From Burkholderiales bacterium (GTDB lineage Bacteria; Pseudomonadota; Gammaproteobacteria; Burkholderiales; SG8-39): a stretch of DNA of 64,000 nucleotides. The position numbers and the translations under genes are program-made. The stretch is taken from positions 1-64,000 of the forward strand of contig JADGRQ010000020.1 in assembly GCA_017880775.1 (NCBI GenBank), given 5' to 3'. Positions 26,788 to 63,670 of the stretch are shown here, in pieces; positions within the stretch are counted from its first letter, which is position 1; each line of letters begins with the position of its first letter. The notes below the pieces were generated by a model. It did no database searches, was not told where the DNA came from, and worked only from the letters and a program-made list of their open reading frames with translations.

Positions 26788-27483
26788 CTACGCGAACTCG
26801 GCCTCGGCGCGGCGAAGACTCTCGGCATTGCCGATGTCGCGATGGTAATCCGCGTTGTGAAACACGGCGATGCGTCCGAGGAAATGCGGGATGACCTCGG
26901 TGCTCAGATCCACGAATTGCTTGCCGAGGGAGGCGATGAAGTCGACTGTTTCCGGCTCGATGATATAGACCGCACCGTTTGCTCTATTGCCAGGCGGGTT
27001 CTTCACTTTCTCGTGGAAATGCACGACCAGCCCGTCGCGGTCCGTCTCGACAATACCGCAGGTTGCCGGCGCATCGGTGTCAAACGTCAGCATCGTCATG
27101 GCTGCCGAGCCGCTCCTGCGGGCGTGCGCGGCCAGAAACTCCCCAACCGGGAAACGCGACAGATTGTCGGCATGGGCCACCACGAAAGGCTGCCGTCCGA
27201 AGAACGCCCGGTTTGCCAGGATCGTGCCCCCCGTTCCCAGCAATTCCGGCTCATGCACCAGCGTGATCCGGTCGCGCCATGGCGAGGCGTCCCGAAATGC
27301 CTCCACCGTCCGGGGCAGGTAGTGCGTGTTGATCAGGACCTCGCTGATTCCGTTCGGCAGCAACAGGTCGAGCCAGTACGCGAGGAGGGGTTTGCCATGG
27401 ATCGGCACCAGGCATTTCGGGATTCGGTCGGTCAGCGGCCTCAGGCGGGTGCCCAGGCCCGCAGCGAGCAGCAGCGCCTTCAA
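26788..27483 (-). CDS. Sugar-phosphate nucleotidyltransferase
   Basis: MKALLLAAGLGTRLRPLTDRIPKCLVPIHGKPLLAYWLDLL. Confidence 0.92.
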   Translation of the reverse strand: MKALLLAAGLGTRLRPLTDRIPKCLVPIHGKPLLAYWLDLLLPNGISEVLINTHYLPRTVEAFRDASPWRDRITLVHEPELLGTGGTILANRAFFGRQPFVVAHADNLSRFPVGEFLAAHARRSGSAAMTMLTFDTDAPATCGIVETDRDGLVVHFHEKVKNPPGNRANGAVYIIEPETVDFIASLGKQFVDLSTEVIPHFLGRIAVFHNADYHRDIGNAESLRRAEAEFA

Positions 27484-28967
27484 AAACGCAACTCCGTAAT
27501 CAGTTCGCCTGCCGAAAGCGGGGAGTTGCCGACCCGGCTGACTTGGCAGGCGGCGGCGATGGATCCCAGGTAGGCGCTGCGCCAGATGTCGGCGCCGACG
27601 GCCAGCGCCATGGACGCGCAGGTCAGCAGCGAGTCACCCGCGCCCGACACGTCCTTGGGGGCCGAATTGAAAGCGGGCAACTGATCCGTGACGTACTCGT
27701 CCGAGCCATTTGCACGCGCGTGAATCAGCAGTCCCTCGGCGCCGAGCGTGATGAACACCTGGTCCGCCCGCGCCTGCAGGCGCAATTCCTCGGCAAGTAC
27801 AACCAGTCCGGAGCTGTTGTCCCGCACCGCGAGCCGCGCCTCGTATTCGGTCGGGGTGATCAGGCGCATCCCCTTGAACCGCGAAACGTCCCCCAACTGC
27901 GAGGAGGTCTGGCTGTCCGCCACCATCATTACGCCGTGCCGCGTGCAACTCTCGACCACGCGTTCCACCAGCGACTGCGGCAGGCAGCCATAATTGAAAT
28001 CCGAGAAAATCAGCAGGTCGGTCCGCACGAGCGAGCGCTCGACCTCGCGGAAAAGCAACTCCGCGAGCTCGCGGCTGATTTCGTGCTGCCGGAGGTGGCT
28101 CACACGCAACAACGTCTTGCCGTTGGCGCGATAGCGCTGCTTGAGGGTCGTCGGGCGGCTGTCGTCGACGATGAACTTCGCGTTCACGCCGAAGCTCGCA
28201 AGCCGTTCCTCGGCATACTTGGCGGGGGCATCATTTCCCACGACGCCGAAGTAGGCGACCTCGGCGCCAAGCCCCCCTGCATGCGCCGCGACAATGCCCG
28301 CGCCACCCACAAACAGGTCCTGGCGTATCGGCGTGACCACGATCGTCGGATCCTCCTGGGACATGCCCAGAGGATCGCAGTTGATGTATTCGTCGACGAT
28401 CAGGTCGCCGATCACCGTGACCCGGAGGCGCGAAAAACTGCCCACCAGGTCGACTAAGTCCCCGAACCCGAAGCCGTGGCGCTCCAGGAACTCGATCGGC
28501 TTGCTGATCGCGAAGTAGTTGGTCTCCAACAGCTCGCGCTGGAGGAGATCGAGCGAAGAAAACCGCACCTCGCCTGAGCTGAAGAGCAGGACCCCGCCAT
28601 AGCTCTCGACCGCAGTCCGCTCGGGATTCGCCTGCGCCTCGAACTCCTTGCCTTTCACCACGACGGCCGGCTTCAGGCCGAGGATGAACTCTTCGGGACG
28701 CCCTTCCAGCAGGAACGCATGGCCTACGATGCCGATCGCGCGCACCCCTTCCAGCCGCATCGCTGCCGGCACCGTCACGGCCGGACTGGAGTCCGCATTC
28801 ACGCCGACCACCAGAAAGTCTCCGCAATCGGCCGCGAACTGCAGCAGCCGCAGGTGTCCGGGATGGACGATGTTGAAGTTGCCGGAGACGAACACCACGC
28901 GCTTCTTCCCCGCGGCCCTTGCACCGATCTCGGCGAACACCTCTGCCACGCTTCGCTGGCGGTCCAT
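27480..28967 (-). CDS. HldE-like bifunctional protein with permuted domains: N-terminal cytidylyltransferase, C-terminal PfkB kinase
   Basis: N-terminal VVFVSGNFNIVHPGHLRLLQFAADCGDFLVVGVNAD (HxGH); C-terminal GDLIVDEYINCDP...DVSGAGDSLLTCASMALAVG (PfkB GAGD). Confidence 0.9.
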   Translation of the reverse strand: MDRQRSVAEVFAEIGARAAGKKRVVFVSGNFNIVHPGHLRLLQFAADCGDFLVVGVNADSSPAVTVPAAMRLEGVRAIGIVGHAFLLEGRPEEFILGLKPAVVVKGKEFEAQANPERTAVESYGGVLLFSSGEVRFSSLDLLQRELLETNYFAISKPIEFLERHGFGFGDLVDLVGSFSRLRVTVIGDLIVDEYINCDPLGMSQEDPTIVVTPIRQDLFVGGAGIVAAHAGGLGAEVAYFGVVGNDAPAKYAEERLASFGVNAKFIVDDSRPTTLKQRYRANGKTLLRVSHLRQHEISRELAELLFREVERSLVRTDLLIFSDFNYGCLPQSLVERVVESCTRHGVMMVADSQTSSQLGDVSRFKGMRLITPTEYEARLAVRDNSSGLVVLAEELRLQARADQVFITLGAEGLLIHARANGSDEYVTDQLPAFNSAPKDVSGAGDSLLTCASMALAVGADIWRSAYLGSIAAACQVSRVGNSPLSAGELITELRF

Positions 28968-54885: not shown

Positions 54886-55917
54886 ATGACGCCACGACGC
54901 AGGGCGGCACTGCTTGTCAAGATCGGTGTGACAGTGACACTGCTCACCTATCTGGCCGGCCGGCTCGACTGGCGCGAGATCGCGCGACTTCTCACGAACA
55001 TCGACGAAAGCATCTACGGCGCCGCGGTCCTCGTGCTGGCTTCCTCCTATGCAATGACGACCGTGCGCTGGCAGCTGTTGCTCGCCGGTCAGGGTCTCGC
55101 GCTTCGCATCCGTTCGGCAATCTCGATCGATCTGATTGCCCTCTTCTTCAACTCGTTCCTGCCCGGCTCTACAGGTGGGGACGCGATGAGCGTCTACTAC
55201 GCTTCGGCGCTGCTGCACGGAGAGCTTAACCGGCTGGTGGCCTCGATCATCATGGACCGGCTGATCGGGCTCACCATCCTGCTCATGTTTGGTTATCTGG
55301 CGTTTGTTCTGCGCCCCGGAATTGCCGCGCGTTTCGAACTGCTGCAAGAGGTCGTTCGCTGGCTTCCGCTTGCACTGGGCATCGGGTTCGCCGGTTGCAT
55401 GGTGGCGCTGTTCGTACCGCCACGCCGTCTCCCGGCTCTTGTCACGAATGCCATAGACCGCGCTTCTCACATACCCATTGTCGGAAGCCTCGTCGAGTTC
55501 GCTCGTCACCTGCGTCGCAAACCTCATGTTCTCGTCCTCGCCGCCGTGACGACTATCGCCGCGCAACTTGTCGGATTCCTCGCAGCGTACCTGGTTGCTC
55601 GGTCGATCGGCATTGCGCTGGATTAGGCGGAGATCGTCCTCGCAATGGCCATCACTCAGACAGCCGTCAGCCTGCCAATCAGTGTTGCCGGTCACGGCGT
55701 GAGTGAAGTGGTGCTGATCGGGATCTTCTCGGCGATGGGCGTGGCCTCCGGCCGGCCGGAGAGCGCGATCGCGTTTTCGGTGCTTTGGTTCTCCGCGCAA
55801 TTGGTATGGAGCCTCGTGGGCGGCGTATGGTTCGCGATCCGGCCGCGGCATCGGCCGCAGAACCGGCAGCGCATTACTCCGTCGCCACCAGCACGCGCCC
55901 AGCCTCGCCAGCCCTGA
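54886..55917 (+). pseudogene. UPF0104/LPG-synthase-TM (YbhN-like) membrane protein gene interrupted by in-frame TAG
   Basis: Same frame carries IDLIALFFNSFLPGSTGGDAMSVYYAS before TAG 55624-55626 and MAITQTAVSLPISVAGHGVSEVVLIGIFSAMGV after it, together matching the architecture of the intact paralog 32819-33781. Confidence 0.83.
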
Positions 55918-57636: not shown

Positions 57637-58566
57637 CTATCTGTGCCCGAGCAGCGCGCGGGCCGTCGACACGACCGCGCCGGCGTTGATGCCGTGATAG
57701 TCCATCAGGTTCGCCTGCGAACCGTAGCGATCGGAAAAAACGTCGGGGATGCCGATCCGGCGGAATTTTTTGCCGGGCGAAAACCCGGCCTCGGCGATCG
57801 CCTCGGCCACCGCGCTGCCGAGGCCGCCGAGGATGGTGTTCTCCTCGATCGCGATCACCGCGCGGACCCGCCCGGCAAGGTCGAGCAGCAGTTCGAGGTC
57901 GAACGGCTTGATGGTCGGCATGTGCAGGATCGCGCATTCGACGCCCCCGGGCGCGAGCGCCTTGGCCGCCTCCTGCGCCACCTTCAGCGTGATGCCGGTC
58001 GTGACGAGCAGCACGTCGCCGCCCTCGCGCATGTGCAACCCCTTGCCGATGCGAAACGGCACGGCGTCGCTGGTAACGATCGGGTCGTAGCCCTTGCCGA
58101 GCCGGATATAGATCGGGCCCGCGTAATCGACGGTCTGCGGCATGAGGCGCTTCATCTCTTCGGCATCGGCAACCGCTACGATGGTCATGTTCGGCAGTGC
58201 GCGAAGGATCGAGATGTCCTCGATTGCCAGATGCGTCGGTCCCAGCGGCGCGTACACCAGCCCGCCGCCGTTGCCGATCAGGCGCACATTGAGGTTGTGA
58301 AGACAGACGTCCACCGCGACCTGCTCGAAGCAGCGCCGCGTGATGAAGGTGCTGATCGTGTTCGCATACACGATGCCGCCCTCGAGCGCGAGGCCCGCGG
58401 CCATGCCCACCAGGTGAGCTTCCGAGATGCCCTCCATGTAGAACCGCTCGGGCATTTCCTCCTTGAACTTGCGCAGCGTGCCGACACCGAGATCGGACCC
58501 GATGAAGGTGATGCGCGGGTCCGCCTTGGCAAGCTCGTACACCTGGTCCAGACAGGTTTCTCTCAT
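57637..58566 (-). CDS. Transketolase-like subunit, C-terminal half
   Basis: MRETCLDQVYELAKADPRITFIGSDLGVGTL; FYMEGISEAHLVGMAAGLALEGGIVYANTISTFITRRCFEQVAVD; YAPLGPTHLAIEDISILRALPNM. Confidence 0.93.
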   Translation of the reverse strand: MRETCLDQVYELAKADPRITFIGSDLGVGTLRKFKEEMPERFYMEGISEAHLVGMAAGLALEGGIVYANTISTFITRRCFEQVAVDVCLHNLNVRLIGNGGGLVYAPLGPTHLAIEDISILRALPNMTIVAVADAEEMKRLMPQTVDYAGPIYIRLGKGYDPIVTSDAVPFRIGKGLHMREGGDVLLVTTGITLKVAQEAAKALAPGGVECAILHMPTIKPFDLELLLDLAGRVRAVIAIEENTILGGLGSAVAEAIAEAGFSPGKKFRRIGIPDVFSDRYGSQANLMDYHGINAGAVVSTARALLGHR

Positions 58567-59399
58567 CCCGCGTCGTCGATCGCGCGCATCAGATCCTCGA
58601 TCTCGCTCTCTTTGATGCTGCTCTTGTGGTGCCACTTGAGGTTGTTTTCCGCAAAAGCCACGCCCTTCCCCTTGACCGTGTGGCAGATGACCGCAGAGGG
58701 TTTTCCGGCCGCGAAAGGCACGGCTGCAAAGACCTGCTCGAGCGCGTGGACGTCGTGGCCGTCGACCTCGCGGGTGGCAAAGCCAAATGCTTCCCACTTG
58801 GCGGCGAAGGGCTCGAGGTCGAGGACTTCGTAGGTGCTGCCGTAGGACTGCTGCTTGTTGTAGTCGACGATGGCGGCGAGATTGTCGAGGCGGTGCTTCG
58901 CGGCGCTCATCGCCGCCTCCCACACCGAGCCTTCGTCGCATTCGCCGTCGCCCAGCACAGTGACGACGCGATGCTTCGCGCCGCGGCGCATTGCCGCAAC
59001 TGCCATGCCGACGGCAATCGGCAAGCCGTGGCCGAGGCTCCCCGTGGAAACTTCAATCCCGGGAACCTTGGGATCCGGATGACCGCCGAGGATGCCGTCG
59101 AACCGGCAAAACTTCACCAGCTCTTCCTTGGCAAAGAATCCCTTCTCCTGCAGCAGCACATAGAGCGCGATGCAGCCGTGCCCCTTGCTCAGGATGAAAC
59201 GGTCGCGCTCCGGCCACTTCGGTCTTTTCGGGTCGTAGCGCAGCACGCTGTCGAAGAGCACGCGCAGTATCTCGACGAGCGAGAGCGAAGTGCCCAAATG
59301 CCCCCTGCCGCCGCCCTCGAGGACGCGAACAATCTGCCTGCGCAGGTGCTTCGAGCGCTCATCGAGTGCGGGGCTTTGTTTTGGAATGTCGTTTTTCAC
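58563..59399 (-). CDS. Transketolase-like subunit, N-terminal half
   Basis: FILSKGHGCIALYVLLQEKG; GIEVSTGSLGHGLPIAVGMAVAAMRRG; VVTVLGDGECDEGSVWEAAMSAAKHRLDNLAAIVDYNKQQS. Confidence 0.94.
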   Translation of the reverse strand: MKNDIPKQSPALDERSKHLRRQIVRVLEGGGRGHLGTSLSLVEILRVLFDSVLRYDPKRPKWPERDRFILSKGHGCIALYVLLQEKGFFAKEELVKFCRFDGILGGHPDPKVPGIEVSTGSLGHGLPIAVGMAVAAMRRGAKHRVVTVLGDGECDEGSVWEAAMSAAKHRLDNLAAIVDYNKQQSYGSTYEVLDLEPFAAKWEAFGFATREVDGHDVHALEQVFAAVPFAAGKPSAVICHTVKGKGVAFAENNLKWHHKSSIKESEIEDLMRAIDDAG

Positions 59400-60445
59400 G
59401 CGTCTTGCTCCCTCAACGTGCGTTCCAGCAATCCCCGGGCCGCTTCGAGCTGGTGCATCTGGATCACCTGGATCTCCTCGGCATTGCGGTCGACGTAGCG
59501 GCGCCGCTCGATCTGGTCCAGCCGGAATTCATTCAACATGATCATGCACCATTTGAGCGCGAACAGCGGATAGAGCGCCCTGACGCGTCCGCTCCATCCC
59601 GGGTCCGCGCCGAATATGGAGTCGAATCCCGCGACCATCTGTTTCTTGCGTTCCGGGGCGAGCCGCATCATCGGATGCAGCAGGCAGTCCGAAATAGTCT
59701 TGGCGGGATCGTCCCAGCCGAAATACTCGAAATCGAGGAACACCAGGCGGCCGCCCGCGGCGCGTAGCGAGTTGTGAAAACCGACGTCCGAAGGGCTTAG
59801 GGTGCGGTACTCCCACGCGAGCTCGGAGCCGGAACCGGCTGTCGCCCGTTCGCCTAGCGCCTGCAGCGCCGGTTTGAACTGCCCGCTCAGGAACCGGCGC
59901 AGCGCATCGTAAGCCGCGCCCTGCGCGTCCACAGCTTCGAGCCGCGCCAGGCGCTGATGCAGATTCGACACCACGCCGGCGACGGTGAAAAAAGCTTCCG
60001 CGGCAGGGTTCAAGGCCCGCGCCTGCGCGTCGGGCTCGATTGCCTTCAGCGCGGCGACAAACGACAGCAGCTGGTCGATATCGCCGGCGGAGGCATCGCT
60101 CGAAGAGACCGGTTCGCCGTGGACGAACCGGTAAAGCGCAACCTGGCGTCCGGCGTCGGCCCGGACCGGTTGCGCGATGCTGCGCACGCCCCGCTGCCAG
60201 AGAAATTCAAGGCCGGAATATTCGACCTGCAGCCGGTCGCGTCCGTCGGCGGTCGGCTTGAAATAGAACTTGGCCGCGTACTCGGCCTCGTCGCAGCGGA
60301 CCTTGTACACGCGGCTGTTGCGTCCCGCGCCCACGCGTTCCGCCGAATCGGCGGGCCGCCCGAGCAGCGCATGCAATGCGTCCATGTCCTCGCGCGGCGC
60401 CGACATTGCAGGGGCCCTGGCCGATGCGGTGCCGATTGCGCTCAT
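59396..60445 (-). CDS. Aminoglycoside/choline phosphotransferase-fold kinase
   Basis: RVGAGRNSRVYKVRCDEAEYAAKFYF; SPSDVGFHNSLRAAGGRLVFLDFEYFGWDDPAKTISDCL (APH-type catalytic and DFEY-D motifs). Confidence 0.87.
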   Translation of the reverse strand: MSAIGTASARAPAMSAPREDMDALHALLGRPADSAERVGAGRNSRVYKVRCDEAEYAAKFYFKPTADGRDRLQVEYSGLEFLWQRGVRSIAQPVRADAGRQVALYRFVHGEPVSSSDASAGDIDQLLSFVAALKAIEPDAQARALNPAAEAFFTVAGVVSNLHQRLARLEAVDAQGAAYDALRRFLSGQFKPALQALGERATAGSGSELAWEYRTLSPSDVGFHNSLRAAGGRLVFLDFEYFGWDDPAKTISDCLLHPMMRLAPERKKQMVAGFDSIFGADPGWSGRVRALYPLFALKWCMIMLNEFRLDQIERRRYVDRNAEEIQVIQMHQLEAARGLLERTLREQDA

Positions 60446-61056
60446 TGGCCGAGAAGGTACTGCTGGATCGACGGCCAGGCCGGGAAAGCCCGCCAGCCGC
60501 CCTTGTCGCCCGGCGTCGACTGCGGGGAAAAGAGGATCTTCGCGACACCGGCCGGAAACGACGCCTCGAGAAAGGTTTCCTCGAGGTCGTCTACGAAGTG
60601 CGTGATGCCGAGCGCCCGGATGCGCCCGATCTTCCCGTGCCGCGTGTCTTCGAAGAAAATCCGGTCGCGGCCGACCCCGAAGCGCTCCGAGTCCACGAAG
60701 CCCTGCGCCTCCAGCCAGCCGAGCGCAGCCGCGCGCAGGTTCACGGCGGGATCGCCGAAGTTCGCGTACTCGGTCTTGTGGCTGACGATGAGGACGTCGA
60801 CGCCGCGCTCCTTGCACGCTGCCATGAATTCCTTTACGCCCTCCATCGGGCGCGCTTCGGGCATGCCGGGGCCATAGGAGAAGACCTGCAGTTCGCGCCA
60901 TTTCGCCTCGCCGTCCCCGAGCGCGCGGATGGCGTCGCGGATGAGCTTCTTGTTCTTCGGCAGACCCGCAGGGATCAGGCCGCGCCCAACCGCTGATCGG
61001 TGCATCGGCTCGTCATAGCTGGCGATCGTGTTGTCAAAGTCGATGCCGATGATCAC
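60442..61056 (-). CDS. HAD-superfamily hydrolase
   Basis: MIIGIDFDNTIASYD; VLIVSHKTEYANFG; FVDDLEETFLEA. Confidence 0.88.
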   Translation of the reverse strand: MIIGIDFDNTIASYDEPMHRSAVGRGLIPAGLPKNKKLIRDAIRALGDGEAKWRELQVFSYGPGMPEARPMEGVKEFMAACKERGVDVLIVSHKTEYANFGDPAVNLRAAALGWLEAQGFVDSERFGVGRDRIFFEDTRHGKIGRIRALGITHFVDDLEETFLEASFPAGVAKILFSPQSTPGDKGGWRAFPAWPSIQQYLLGQ

Positions 61057-61060
61057 GCGC

Positions 61061-62056
61061 CTAACGCAGGTGCAAGCGCTGCATGCGCTTGATGTTGTAG
61101 TAACGGTCGTCCGTCATCGAGTTCGGGATCAGGTTCGCCTTGAAGGCATTTTGCAGATCGCGCACCGCATCCTCTAGCGAGCGCTGCGCCGCGAAGCCGA
61201 GGTCGCGCTGGATGCGCGCCGAGGAGACGTGATACGAACGGTTGTCGTCGGTCGGCGTGGTGATGATCTCGATGTCCGGCCCGACGACATTGCGCACCAT
61301 CTCCGCAATCTCGCGCACCTTGAAATTGTGGTAGCCGACGTTGTAGATCTTGCCGTCGATCTTCGCGGCGTCCCACTCGAGCGCCTCGAGGTACAGGCGC
61401 ACCATGTCGTCGATGTGCAGGTTCGGCCGCATCTGCTCCCCGCCGAAGACCTTTATCTTGCGCGTATTGATGGCGTTATTGGTGAGTATGTTGACCACCA
61501 CGTCGAGCCGCAGCCGGCGCGAGTACCCGCAGACCGTCGACGGTCTGACCGTCAGCACCGTGAATCCGGGCGAGCGCTCCTTCATCAGGACGTCCTCGCA
61601 CATCGCCTTGTATTTCGAATAGTCCGTGAGCGGCTCGAGCGGCAGGTCTTCGGTCACGTTCTGGTCGGGCTTGATGCCGTAGACGCTGGAGGACGACGCG
61701 TAGATGAAGCGCTTCACGCCGCTTCCCTTCGACACCTTCACGAGGTCTATGAACGCATCGTAGTTGATGGACTTGCCCAGGGCCGGGTCGAGCTCGAAGC
61801 TGGGATCATTCGAGATGCAGGCGAGGTGGATCACCGAATCGCAGCCGGGGATCGTGCGCTCGAGCAGCTTCCTGTCGCGCATGTCGCCCTTGATCAGCTC
61901 GAGCCCCGGATGGGCGTCGAGCACGTCGTCGCCAAACATGAACAGGTCGAGCACCTTGACCCGGTAGCCGGCCTCGAGCAGCGCCGGCACCAGAGCGGCG
62001 CCGACATATCCGGCGCCCCCGGTGACGTATACGGTTCGTTTTCCCTGGTCGCTCAT
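61061..62056 (-). CDS. NAD-dependent epimerase/dehydratase (SDR)
   Basis: RTVYVTGGAGYVGAALVPALLEAGYRVKVLDLFMFGDDVL; RFIYASSSSVYGIKPDQNVTEDLPLEPLTDYSKYKA. Confidence 0.94.
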   Translation of the reverse strand: MSDQGKRTVYVTGGAGYVGAALVPALLEAGYRVKVLDLFMFGDDVLDAHPGLELIKGDMRDRKLLERTIPGCDSVIHLACISNDPSFELDPALGKSINYDAFIDLVKVSKGSGVKRFIYASSSSVYGIKPDQNVTEDLPLEPLTDYSKYKAMCEDVLMKERSPGFTVLTVRPSTVCGYSRRLRLDVVVNILTNNAINTRKIKVFGGEQMRPNLHIDDMVRLYLEALEWDAAKIDGKIYNVGYHNFKVREIAEMVRNVVGPDIEIITTPTDDNRSYHVSSARIQRDLGFAAQRSLEDAVRDLQNAFKANLIPNSMTDDRYYNIKRMQRLHLR

Positions 62057-62064
62057 GGAGATCC

Positions 62065-62661
62065 TTACATTCCCAGCCGGATGCGGTCGGCGATGTTGTG
62101 CAGCACGAACTGATGCCCGATCTCGACCATGCCGTAGTCGGTCGAGTCGAGCCAGATGTTGACGCCGCCGAGCGAGCGCAACGGATTGTCGCGCTTGAAC
62201 CCGCTCAGCGTCACGGTCTTTCCGCCCAGCTTGCGCATCTCGGCAGCGGCGTTGCGGATGTTGGCCGATTGGCCGGAGCTGCTGATGGCGATCAGCACGT
62301 CGCCGGGGGAGGCGAGCGTCCCGAGAATGCGCGCGAACGCGACCTCATATCCGAAATCGTTGCTCATGCAGGTGAGCAGCGACGGCTCATGCAGCGTCAT
62401 TGCGCGAAGCTTCGCGACGTTGAGGAAGTCGGTGATCGCGTGGCTCGCGACGCCCGCGCTGCCGCCGTTGCCGACAAGGTAAAGCCGGCCGCCGGCCGAC
62501 CGTAGGTCCTTCAGCAGGCCGACCGTCGCGACCATGGCCGCCTCGGTGTCGCTGCGCCGCCCGGCCTGATCGGTGACCTCGGTGGCGGCGACGACGCGCA
62601 GAAATTCAGCGCCGCGCGCGCCCAACGTCATGCCCTGGACCTGATCAAGCGCTGCGGACAC
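62065..62661 (-). CDS. SIS-domain sugar isomerase (GmhA-like)
   Basis: GGRLYLVGNGGSAGVASHAITDFLNVAKLRAMTL; GDVLIAISSSGQSANIRNAAAEMRKLGGKTVTLSG; probable GTG start. Confidence 0.92.
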   Translation of the reverse strand: MSAALDQVQGMTLGARGAEFLRVVAATEVTDQAGRRSDTEAAMVATVGLLKDLRSAGGRLYLVGNGGSAGVASHAITDFLNVAKLRAMTLHEPSLLTCMSNDFGYEVAFARILGTLASPGDVLIAISSSGQSANIRNAAAEMRKLGGKTVTLSGFKRDNPLRSLGGVNIWLDSTDYGMVEIGHQFVLHNIADRIRLGM

Positions 62662-63670
62662 TTGCGCCTCCCAGATATTTGAACCAGGACTGCGTCGCCT
62701 TGCCGATGGAATCGGCGTCCCAGAGCGGGGCCTCGCGCCAGTAATCGATGTTCGCCACCACCCTGCCCACGCCCTCTTCAAAACTTACCTTCGGCGACCA
62801 ACCCAGTTCACCCTTGATGCGGGAAATATCAGCCCAGGTGCAGTCCGGCTCTCCGGGCCGCTTCGGAATGTGCGTCTTCGGGCCACCGAGAAGTTCGACC
62901 AGGCGATTGACCGATTGCGGGTTGCCGGCGCCGACGTTGTAGCACCTGCCACTGTTCGCGGTCTCGGCGGCGGCAAGAAAGGCGCCCGCCACATCGCTTG
63001 CGTAAATGAAATCGCGCTTCTGCGTGCCGTCGCCCACCACCGTATACGGGCGCCCCGCGAGCTTCTGGCGCAGAAATACGCCAAACACCGCACCATATAC
63101 GCCCGAGGTACGGGACCGTATTCCAAAGGCGTTGAATATCCGAATCGAATTGGCGGGCTGCCTGTAGACCTGATGCCAATGCATTACCGCGAGCTCGCCA
63201 AGGTACTTGCTGAGCGCATACGGGTACTGTGGCGCAATCGGGTGTTCCTCGGTCGTCGGCACGGAAGCAAGGCCATAGCATGACGAAGAAGCCGCATATA
63301 CGAACTTGATTGCGGCGGCATGCCGCGCGCATTCGAGCATGCGCACCGTGCCCTGGACATTGGCAGACATGTATTCGGCGGGCTGCTCGATCGAGGGGAC
63401 AATGTCGCCGATGCCGGCAAAGTGAAATACGTAGCGCGCGCCGGCAAACAGCGGGTCGCCCGGCTCATAGTCGCGAATGTCGCGGTACTCGGCCTTCACG
63501 CGGGGATTGCTCGAATGGTGCGCGAGGTTGGCTTCGCGCCCGCCGACCAGGCTGTCGATCACGCGAACCTCGTAGCCGCGCTCGGCCAGCAGATCCACCA
63601 TGTGGCTGCCGATAAAGCCCGCGCCGCCCGTGACTACGGCAACCGGATCAACTCCGCTAGTAACTGCCAT
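62645..63670 (-). CDS. NAD-dependent epimerase/dehydratase (UDP-sugar 4-epimerase-like)
   Basis: VAVVTGGAGFIGSHMVDLLAERGYEVRVIDSLVGGREANL; FVYAASSSCYGLASVPTTEEHPIAPQYPYALSKYLGEL. Confidence 0.95.
   Translation of the reverse strand: MAVTSGVDPVAVVTGGAGFIGSHMVDLLAERGYEVRVIDSLVGGREANLAHHSSNPRVKAEYRDIRDYEPGDPLFAGARYVFHFAGIGDIVPSIEQPAEYMSANVQGTVRMLECARHAAAIKFVYAASSSCYGLASVPTTEEHPIAPQYPYALSKYLGELAVMHWHQVYRQPANSIRIFNAFGIRSRTSGVYGAVFGVFLRQKLAGRPYTVVGDGTQKRDFIYASDVAGAFLAAAETANSGRCYNVGAGNPQSVNRLVELLGGPKTHIPKRPGEPDCTWADISRIKGELGWSPKVSFEEGVGRVVANIDYWREAPLWDADSIGKATQSWFKYLGGASVRSA

Follow-up and report, generated by a model that had tools for sequence, protein, structure and literature searches.

What is made by the nine close-packed minus-strand genes at positions 63670-55874 of a contig from a Burkholderiales bacterium (JADGRQ010000020.1, assembly GCA_017880775.1)? 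The first 64,000 nucleotides of this contig, which we refer to as the window, carry there a split transketolase, a sugar-phosphate isomerase, two short-chain dehydrogenases/reductases (SDRs), a phosphatase, a kinase, a methyltransferase (MT), and an alcohol dehydrogenase (ADH), and an original prediction saw in them a candidate undescribed sugar or polyol pathway. The pathway is real, dedicated, and widely distributed, and it is a variation on the type of pathway that the bradyrhizose operon exemplifies. "Undescribed" was too strong a word, since a Bradyrhizobium operon with ten homologous genes had already been implicated in the bradyrhizose O-antigen (PMC4743980). We tentatively favor the view that these genes form a dedicated pathway to a nucleotide sugar, that it serves a surface polysaccharide, and that it functions in the manner of the Bradyrhizobium operon. 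In the window, the product may be bradyrhizose or a close relative, worded in this way, and not as bradyrhizose as such, because one SDR differs.

Gene content and organization of the operon

The operon consists of the following genes.

epi1, 63670-62645, minus strand: extended SDR with an SSSCYG motif, 4-epimerase type (Pfam PF01370/PF16363)
SIS, 62661-62065 with a GTG start or from 62631 with an ATG start, minus strand: SIS-fold ketose/aldose-phosphate isomerase, GmhA-like (PF13580)
epi2, 62056-61061, minus strand: extended SDR with an SSSSVYG motif (PF01370)
HAD, 61056-60442, minus strand: HAD phosphatase with DFDNT...VSH...K...DD motifs (Foldseek matches to HAD phosphatases)
kinase, 60445-59396, minus strand: APH/choline-kinase-fold small-molecule kinase with motifs PSDxGFHN and DFEYxGxDDP
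TKN, 59399-58563, minus strand: thiamine diphosphate (ThDP)-binding half of the split transketolase (PF00456)
TKC, 58566-57637, minus strand: pyrimidine-binding/C-terminal half of the split transketolase (PF02779/PF02780)
MT, 57599-56934, minus strand: S-adenosylmethionine methyltransferase of the YWDGDRRYGYGGY family, candidate C-methyltransferase (Pfam Methyltransf_31/11)
Zn-ADH, 56914-55874, minus strand: Zn-dependent alcohol dehydrogenase (PF00107/PF08240)

The strand and tight spacing of all nine genes are as originally predicted, with gaps of less than 10 nt from epi2 to HAD (4 nt) and from SIS to epi2 (8 nt) and gaps of 37 nt from TKC to MT and 19 nt from MT to ADH. ATGA overlaps join HAD to the kinase and TKN to TKC, as had been claimed, but the kinase/TKN overlap, put down as a third ATGA, is GTGA. 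Pfam bore out the families assigned to the SDRs, SIS, TK_N, TK_pyr/TK_C, MT, and ADH. The HAD and kinase proteins had no match in Pfam or NCBIfam in searches with the window proteins, and it was structure prediction with AlphaFold2 and Foldseek that confirmed the folds proposed for them. The HAD model (pLDDT, 95.4) matched HAD phosphatases, and the superfamily motifs DxDxT, S/T, K, and DD accompany the fold and are invariant across 84 homologues. The kinase model (pLDDT, 91.8) matched APH(9)-Ia, LicA, and choline kinase (E, 4e-10; probability, 1.00), and its invariant SPSDxGFHN and DFEYxGxDDP stretches are the catalytic D...N and D motifs of the APH/choline-kinase superfamily.

The remaining proteins have relatives of several kinds. 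SIS scored 77 bits against the GmhA equivalog model TIGR00441, below the cut-off of 209; throughout its family (48/48), GmhA residues E65 and Q172 are exchanged for Asp and Glu and H61 is kept, and H180 is kept in 44 of the 48. The epi1 protein is 56-59% identical to SDRs of the type 2 Bradyrhizobium cassettes described below and 54-56% identical to cassette SDRs of other phyla, and epi2 is up to 68% identical to cyanobacterial cassette members. MT is a recent horizontal gain within the operon: it is 85% identical to the cassette copy of a verrucomicrobial metagenome-assembled genome (MAG; locus L075) and has a GC content of 0.54, versus 0.635 for the window.

Directly upstream of the operon, on the same strand and past the window edge, is a Wzt/Wzm-type ABC exporter pair (locus L012), and the operon is therefore part of a polysaccharide locus. 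A housekeeping role for the operon was considered and rejected. Because a canonical transketolase, GmhA, and HldA/E are encoded separately elsewhere in the same genome, the gene set is a dedicated one.

The gene set is co-conserved across phyla

A kinase-profile scan of named genomes yielded 80 kinase-anchored loci, several of them on incomplete contigs. These loci contained HAD (79 loci), MT (70), TKC (68), ADH (65), TKN (64), a gdh-like SDR (63), and epi2 (58), and the set recurs collinearly across unrelated genomes. MT and ADH, which the original prediction spaced correctly but placed merely downstream, thus belong to the same set. The rows of the TKC tree bear 16 phylum labels, many of them from MAGs with untrustworthy species labels. 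One cassette fragment lies on a short contig labeled as the archaeon Methanocalculus (locus L038), which is probably a mis-binned bacterial contig.

A sample of 300 genomes from the order contained five further genomes with the kinase, and in all five TKN, TKC, HAD, MT, and ADH were beside it. Four of the five also had SIS, epi2, and a second SDR; the region retrieved from the fifth ends just upstream of TKN. Because the 80 loci had been selected by the kinase, we drew 399 genomes evenly from the phylum as an unbiased test. The kinase was found in 34 of these and the TKC subfamily in 40, with both in 30 (p=2.7e-32). Most kinase genes (24 of 35) lay within 3 kb of a TKC of the subfamily. Additionally, when distance matrices were compared among TKC, TKN, HAD, SIS, and the kinase, the correlations came to 0.50-0.80. 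The genes are therefore not randomly assorted, the outcome that would have undone the novelty claim of the original prediction, and its idea of a dedicated, co-conserved surface-sugar pathway is supported both by this co-conservation and by the separate housekeeping enzymes. That unrelated sugar genes are neighbors by chance is barely credible; O-antigen regions are mosaics, and the atypical GC content of MT shows that genes are swapped, but the recurrence of the set and the co-occurrence (p=2.7e-32, and p=7e-12 for HldE-rev, described next) refute it, and the matrix correlations also count against it.

A nucleotidyltransferase pair 28 kb away

The original prediction, which noted no nucleotidyltransferase in the operon, offered positions 26788-28967 as one possible source of it, the other option being a non-nucleotide product; there we found the last two of the following genes.

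RmlD-like SDR, 29879-28971, minus strand: PF04321, 3 nt upstream of HldE-rev
HldE-rev, 28967-27480, minus strand: HldE-like with reversed domains, cytidylyltransferase PF01467 at 27-108 and PfkB PF00294 at 183-481
NTase, 27483-26788, minus strand: NTP_transferase PF00483, sugar-1-phosphate nucleotidyltransferase

That guess was a good one, as the pair tracks the kinase across genomes: HldE-rev (at least 62% identity) occurs in 7 of the 300 genomes of the order, including all 6 of the 6 kinase-positive ones (p=7e-12), in which it is often on a different contig from the kinase. By its position, the RmlD-like SDR is a possible further member of the pathway, perhaps a ketoreductase. In the seventh genome (G284, locus L121), HldE-rev and NTase (62% and 57%) adjoin RfbF/RfbG, and the assembly, which is 89% complete, has neither the kinase nor the transketolase cassette; either the genome is incomplete or the pair has another use there.

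The GmhA-HldE-GmhB pathway to ADP/GDP-heptose likewise combines a SIS isomerase, a PfkB kinase with a nucleotidyltransferase, and an HAD phosphatase. However, its HldE has the kinase at the N terminus and the nucleotidyltransferase at the C terminus, an order that is reversed in the window and in Bradyrhizobium strain BTAi1, and its SIS protein has Glu and Gln at the metal-site positions, where the window family has Asp and Glu.

Relationship to the Bradyrhizobium gdh operon

In strain ORS285, disruption of gdh, which encodes a dTDP-glucose-dehydratase-like SDR in an 11-gene cluster 40-44 kb from a Wzy_C ligase, left the strain without the O-antigen and eliminated the bradyrhizose peaks; the same 2016 paper described the bradyrhizose genes as unknown and the cluster as an uncharacterized candidate (PMC4743980). 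The published ORS285 gdh primers have 0 mismatches to one Bradyrhizobium locus (L103, genome G464) and 2 and 1 mismatches to BTAi1, and unrelated loci have 7-8. The BTAi1 operon comprises 11 genes in collinear order (HldE-rev, NTase, epi2, SIS, gdh, TKN, TKC, ADH, HAD, kinase, MT), with a Wzy_C ligase about 37 kb away.

Ten of the 11 gdh-operon genes have homologues in the window, at 31-62% identity. BTAi1 and window proteins are 59% identical for HldE-rev (operon gene 1), 62% for NTase (gene 2), 43% for epi2, 35% for SIS, 46% for TKN, 39% for TKC, 43% for HAD, 31% for the kinase, and 45% for MT, and the BTAi1 ADH is 48% identical to the ADH family to which the window copy belongs. The place of gdh is taken in the window by epi1, a 4-epimerase-type SDR. 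An O-antigen setting is common to the window operon and to the gdh operon found in ORS285, BTAi1, and other photosynthetic Bradyrhizobium strains, but HldE-rev and NTase are inside the latter and 28 kb away in the window, where the gene order is also different. At the position where RmlB carries Asp-Glu, the gdh family mostly has Pro-Glu, which makes 4,6-dehydration by this family doubtful.

The BTAi1-type kinase is present in 10 of 199 sampled Bradyrhizobium genomes. Seven of the 10 are photosynthetic by the presence of PufLM, versus 21 of 199 overall, a supportive profile, although its p-value (5e-6) is inflated by shared ancestry; the other three carriers lack PufLM. In the full-text literature searched, we found no published biochemistry of the 11-gene operon; searches on split transketolase, with and without O-antigen, returned no papers, and a search on the gene set returned nothing useful.

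A further 53 of the 199 genomes were kinase positive beyond the BTAi1 type, and the four loci read among them (L104-L107) define the type 2 cassette. Its epi1, epi2, TKN, and TKC are 55-62% identical to those of the window, and the order epi2-HAD-kinase-TKN-TKC is common to both. Unlike the window, the type 2 cassette has a divergent HldE (27%), two DegT aminotransferases, a PhyH-like gene, and TylC3-like C-methyltransferases besides MT, with no ADH adjoining. Its product would be a different one, probably amino modified. The window is a mosaic of a type 2 core, a BTAi1-like HldE-rev/NTase pair, and a low-GC MT close to the verrucomicrobial copy.

The transketolase substrate site is rebuilt

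Canonical transketolases contact their substrate through R318, S345, H416, D424, and R474 and use E366 together with Gln or His at 428 in catalysis. We surveyed these residues in 80 TKC copies, numbered on human TKT (numbering checked). The catalytic residues are kept, with E366 and a His at 428 in 80/80. At the substrate contacts, H416 is replaced by Gly and R474 by Lys in every copy, D424 is replaced in all 80 (Leu in 76, Asn in 4), and position 345 is never Ser; R318, kept in 78 copies, is the only one of the five that is retained. This rebuilding of the substrate-phosphate site, seen in all TKC copies, disfavors ordinary sugar-phosphate transketolase chemistry as the original prediction had it. 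The closest solved relative of both halves is the split transketolase of Carboxydothermus hydrogenoformans (6yak, 6yaj; TKN best matches 6yak in the PDB at E 5e-71), which retains H416, D424, R474, and S345 and thus the canonical substrate-phosphate residues that the window family has replaced.

A second split transketolase pair

The window contains a second pair in an operon of its own.

Second operon, 51534-44868, minus strand: RfbH, a ferredoxin-reductase-like gene, RfbF, RfbG, TKN2/TKC2, SDR
TKN2/TKC2, 47571-45839, minus strand: second split transketolase pair

RfbH, RfbF, and RfbG score above their NCBIfam cut-offs (690, 468, and 504 bits, respectively), TKC2 has the Gly, Leu, and Lys replacements typical of the 80 TKC copies, and the order RfbF-RfbG-RfbH-TKN-TKC-SDR is collinear in another genome (locus L145). 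RfbFGH produce CDP-4-keto-dideoxyglucose. This is the sugar that is branched by YerE and ErwE (PMC12247030), which build the C-C bond of yersiniose and erwiniose on the CDP-4-keto-dideoxyhexose with ThDP; the same RfbFGH-type genes would also feed TKN2/TKC2. YerE, however, is a decarboxylase-family enzyme that uses pyruvate, whereas the window has transketolase-family pairs. From its genes, the second operon looks like a yersiniose-type pathway in which a split transketolase replaces YerE.

The position of the second pair beside RfbF/G/H therefore implies a nucleotide keto-sugar acceptor. Taking this setting together with the active site, we consider it most likely that the rebuilt subfamily transfers hydroxyacetyl to nucleotide keto-sugars. 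Such a transfer has been proposed, and only proposed, for the split transketolases of the miharamycin and amipurimycin antibiotic clusters, of which there are 13 sequences, all from Streptomycetes and none characterized in vitro (PMC12247030). The likeness drawn to these is in the proposed chemistry; the window kind belongs to polysaccharide loci in 16 phyla.

A stretch of about 13 kb in a Pirellula locus (L085:18800-20500) holds two TKN/TKC pairs, of which the second groups with the window TKC2 (83/81). In the window, a lone plus-strand gene at 54886-55626, which we take to resemble a UPF0104 flippase-type membrane protein, separates two minus-strand blocks. Amid the polysaccharide genes, at 41019-39886 (minus strand), a pentapeptide-repeat protein is encoded.

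Proposed pathway and alternatives

Bradyrhizose has ten carbons and two rings, and its C1 closes onto O4, O5, or O9 (PMC9912281). C4 therefore bears O, C3, C5, and C9, and C4-C9 is the carbocycle. In the route that we propose, SIS would convert sedoheptulose-7-phosphate to an aldoheptose-7-phosphate, from which the HldE-rev kinase, the HAD phosphatase, and the nucleotidyltransferase would make a nucleotide heptose. An SDR would then oxidize C4 to a ketone and Zn-ADH would oxidize C7 to an aldehyde. The split transketolase would attach hydroxyacetyl, a C2 unit, to the keto-sugar, with C4 as the likeliest site, and an aldol closure could then span C4 to C7 with the two added carbons, yielding an inositol-type ring. 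Finally, an SDR would reduce the leftover ketone and MT would add C10. The count would be 7+2+1=10, and C4 would become a tertiary alcohol with C3, C5, and C9 as its neighbors, which matches bradyrhizose.

Several points weigh against this route and its product. The kinase is without a firm role in it, no obvious cyclase is encoded, MT could be an O-methyltransferase, and the route takes the tenth carbon of bradyrhizose to be a C-methyl group. Neither the window nor its whole genome has a gdh orthologue (best identity to other SDRs, 24-27%). In the TKC tree the window groups with the type 2 Bradyrhizobium cassette (100/100) and not with BTAi1, and the type 2 cassette has no known product. The gdh mutant itself may be polar, as its authors noted (PMC4743980); because the gdh insertion precedes TKN-MT and these genes are read the same way, polarity is possible, and it weakens the claim on gdh itself and not that on the operon. 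Outright identity with the BTAi1 operon was not adopted, in view of the missing gdh and the different TKC clade. The window operon is bradyrhizose-like, not bradyrhizose.

A broader reading takes this carbocycle-forming chemistry, with C2 added by the transketolase to a nucleotide 4-keto-heptose and an inositol ring closed across C4 and C7, as widespread and undescribed. Inositol-fused sugars such as bradyrhizose have so far been a Bradyrhizobium-only product; on this reading, the window organism and bacteria of at least 16 phyla would produce bradyrhizose or others of the type. We regard this broader claim as possible but doubtful. It is unlikely, though well worth weighing, that the transketolase instead places a hydroxyacetyl branch on a nucleotide-linked 4-keto-heptose or 4-keto-hexose, with SDR, ADH, MT, kinase, and HAD decorating a branched, non-carbocyclic sugar and bradyrhizose being a special case of photosynthetic Bradyrhizobium. 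Hydroxyacetyl branching of keto-sugars is what has been proposed for the miharamycin and amipurimycin enzymes (PMC12247030), the second window pair stands in an RfbFGH setting, and accessory genes vary by cassette type, as with the two DegT genes and the PhyH-like gene of type 2. Yet a simple branch gives no evident task to Zn-ADH, which recurs in 65 of the 80 loci, and the sole product evidence is the Bradyrhizobium link to a bicyclic product.

An order close to that of the original prediction, in which the kinase phosphorylates an aldose and the transketolase lengthens it to an unusual ketose phosphate before isomerization by SIS, activation by HldE-rev/NTase, loss of the terminal phosphate to HAD, and the epimerases lead to a higher aldose such as an octose or a rare heptose, seems to us improbable. 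It forms a coherent textbook chain from kinase to epimerase, and SIS retains most GmhA-type residues; however, the substrate-phosphate-binding residues are replaced in all 80 TKC copies, the genome already has a canonical transketolase, and MT, Zn-ADH, and the ten carbons of bradyrhizose are left unexplained. That the product is no nucleotide sugar but a polyol or sugar phosphate, attached as a building block by a phosphotransferase, is very improbable. A kinase with the APH/choline-kinase fold would suit it, being the sort that supplies LicA-type decorations, but HldE-rev and NTase track the cassette, and the BTAi1 operon starts with both.

Implications for bradyrhizose-like sugars

Bradyrhizose is a rare, immunologically silent, symbiosis-associated surface sugar. 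The 11-gene candidate cluster for it can now be read gene by gene and is tied to the published mutant through the primer sequences, and the proposed carbon account, 7+2+1 for a ten-carbon sugar, is concrete and testable. A 2025 review knew such transketolases from 13 uncharacterized Streptomyces sequences and considered them promising for tertiary alcohols (PMC12247030); about 80 sequences of the type described here are now at hand, including those of cultured Herbaspirillum and Bradyrhizobium. The Bradyrhizobium gdh operon is one branch of a kit that is found across phyla.

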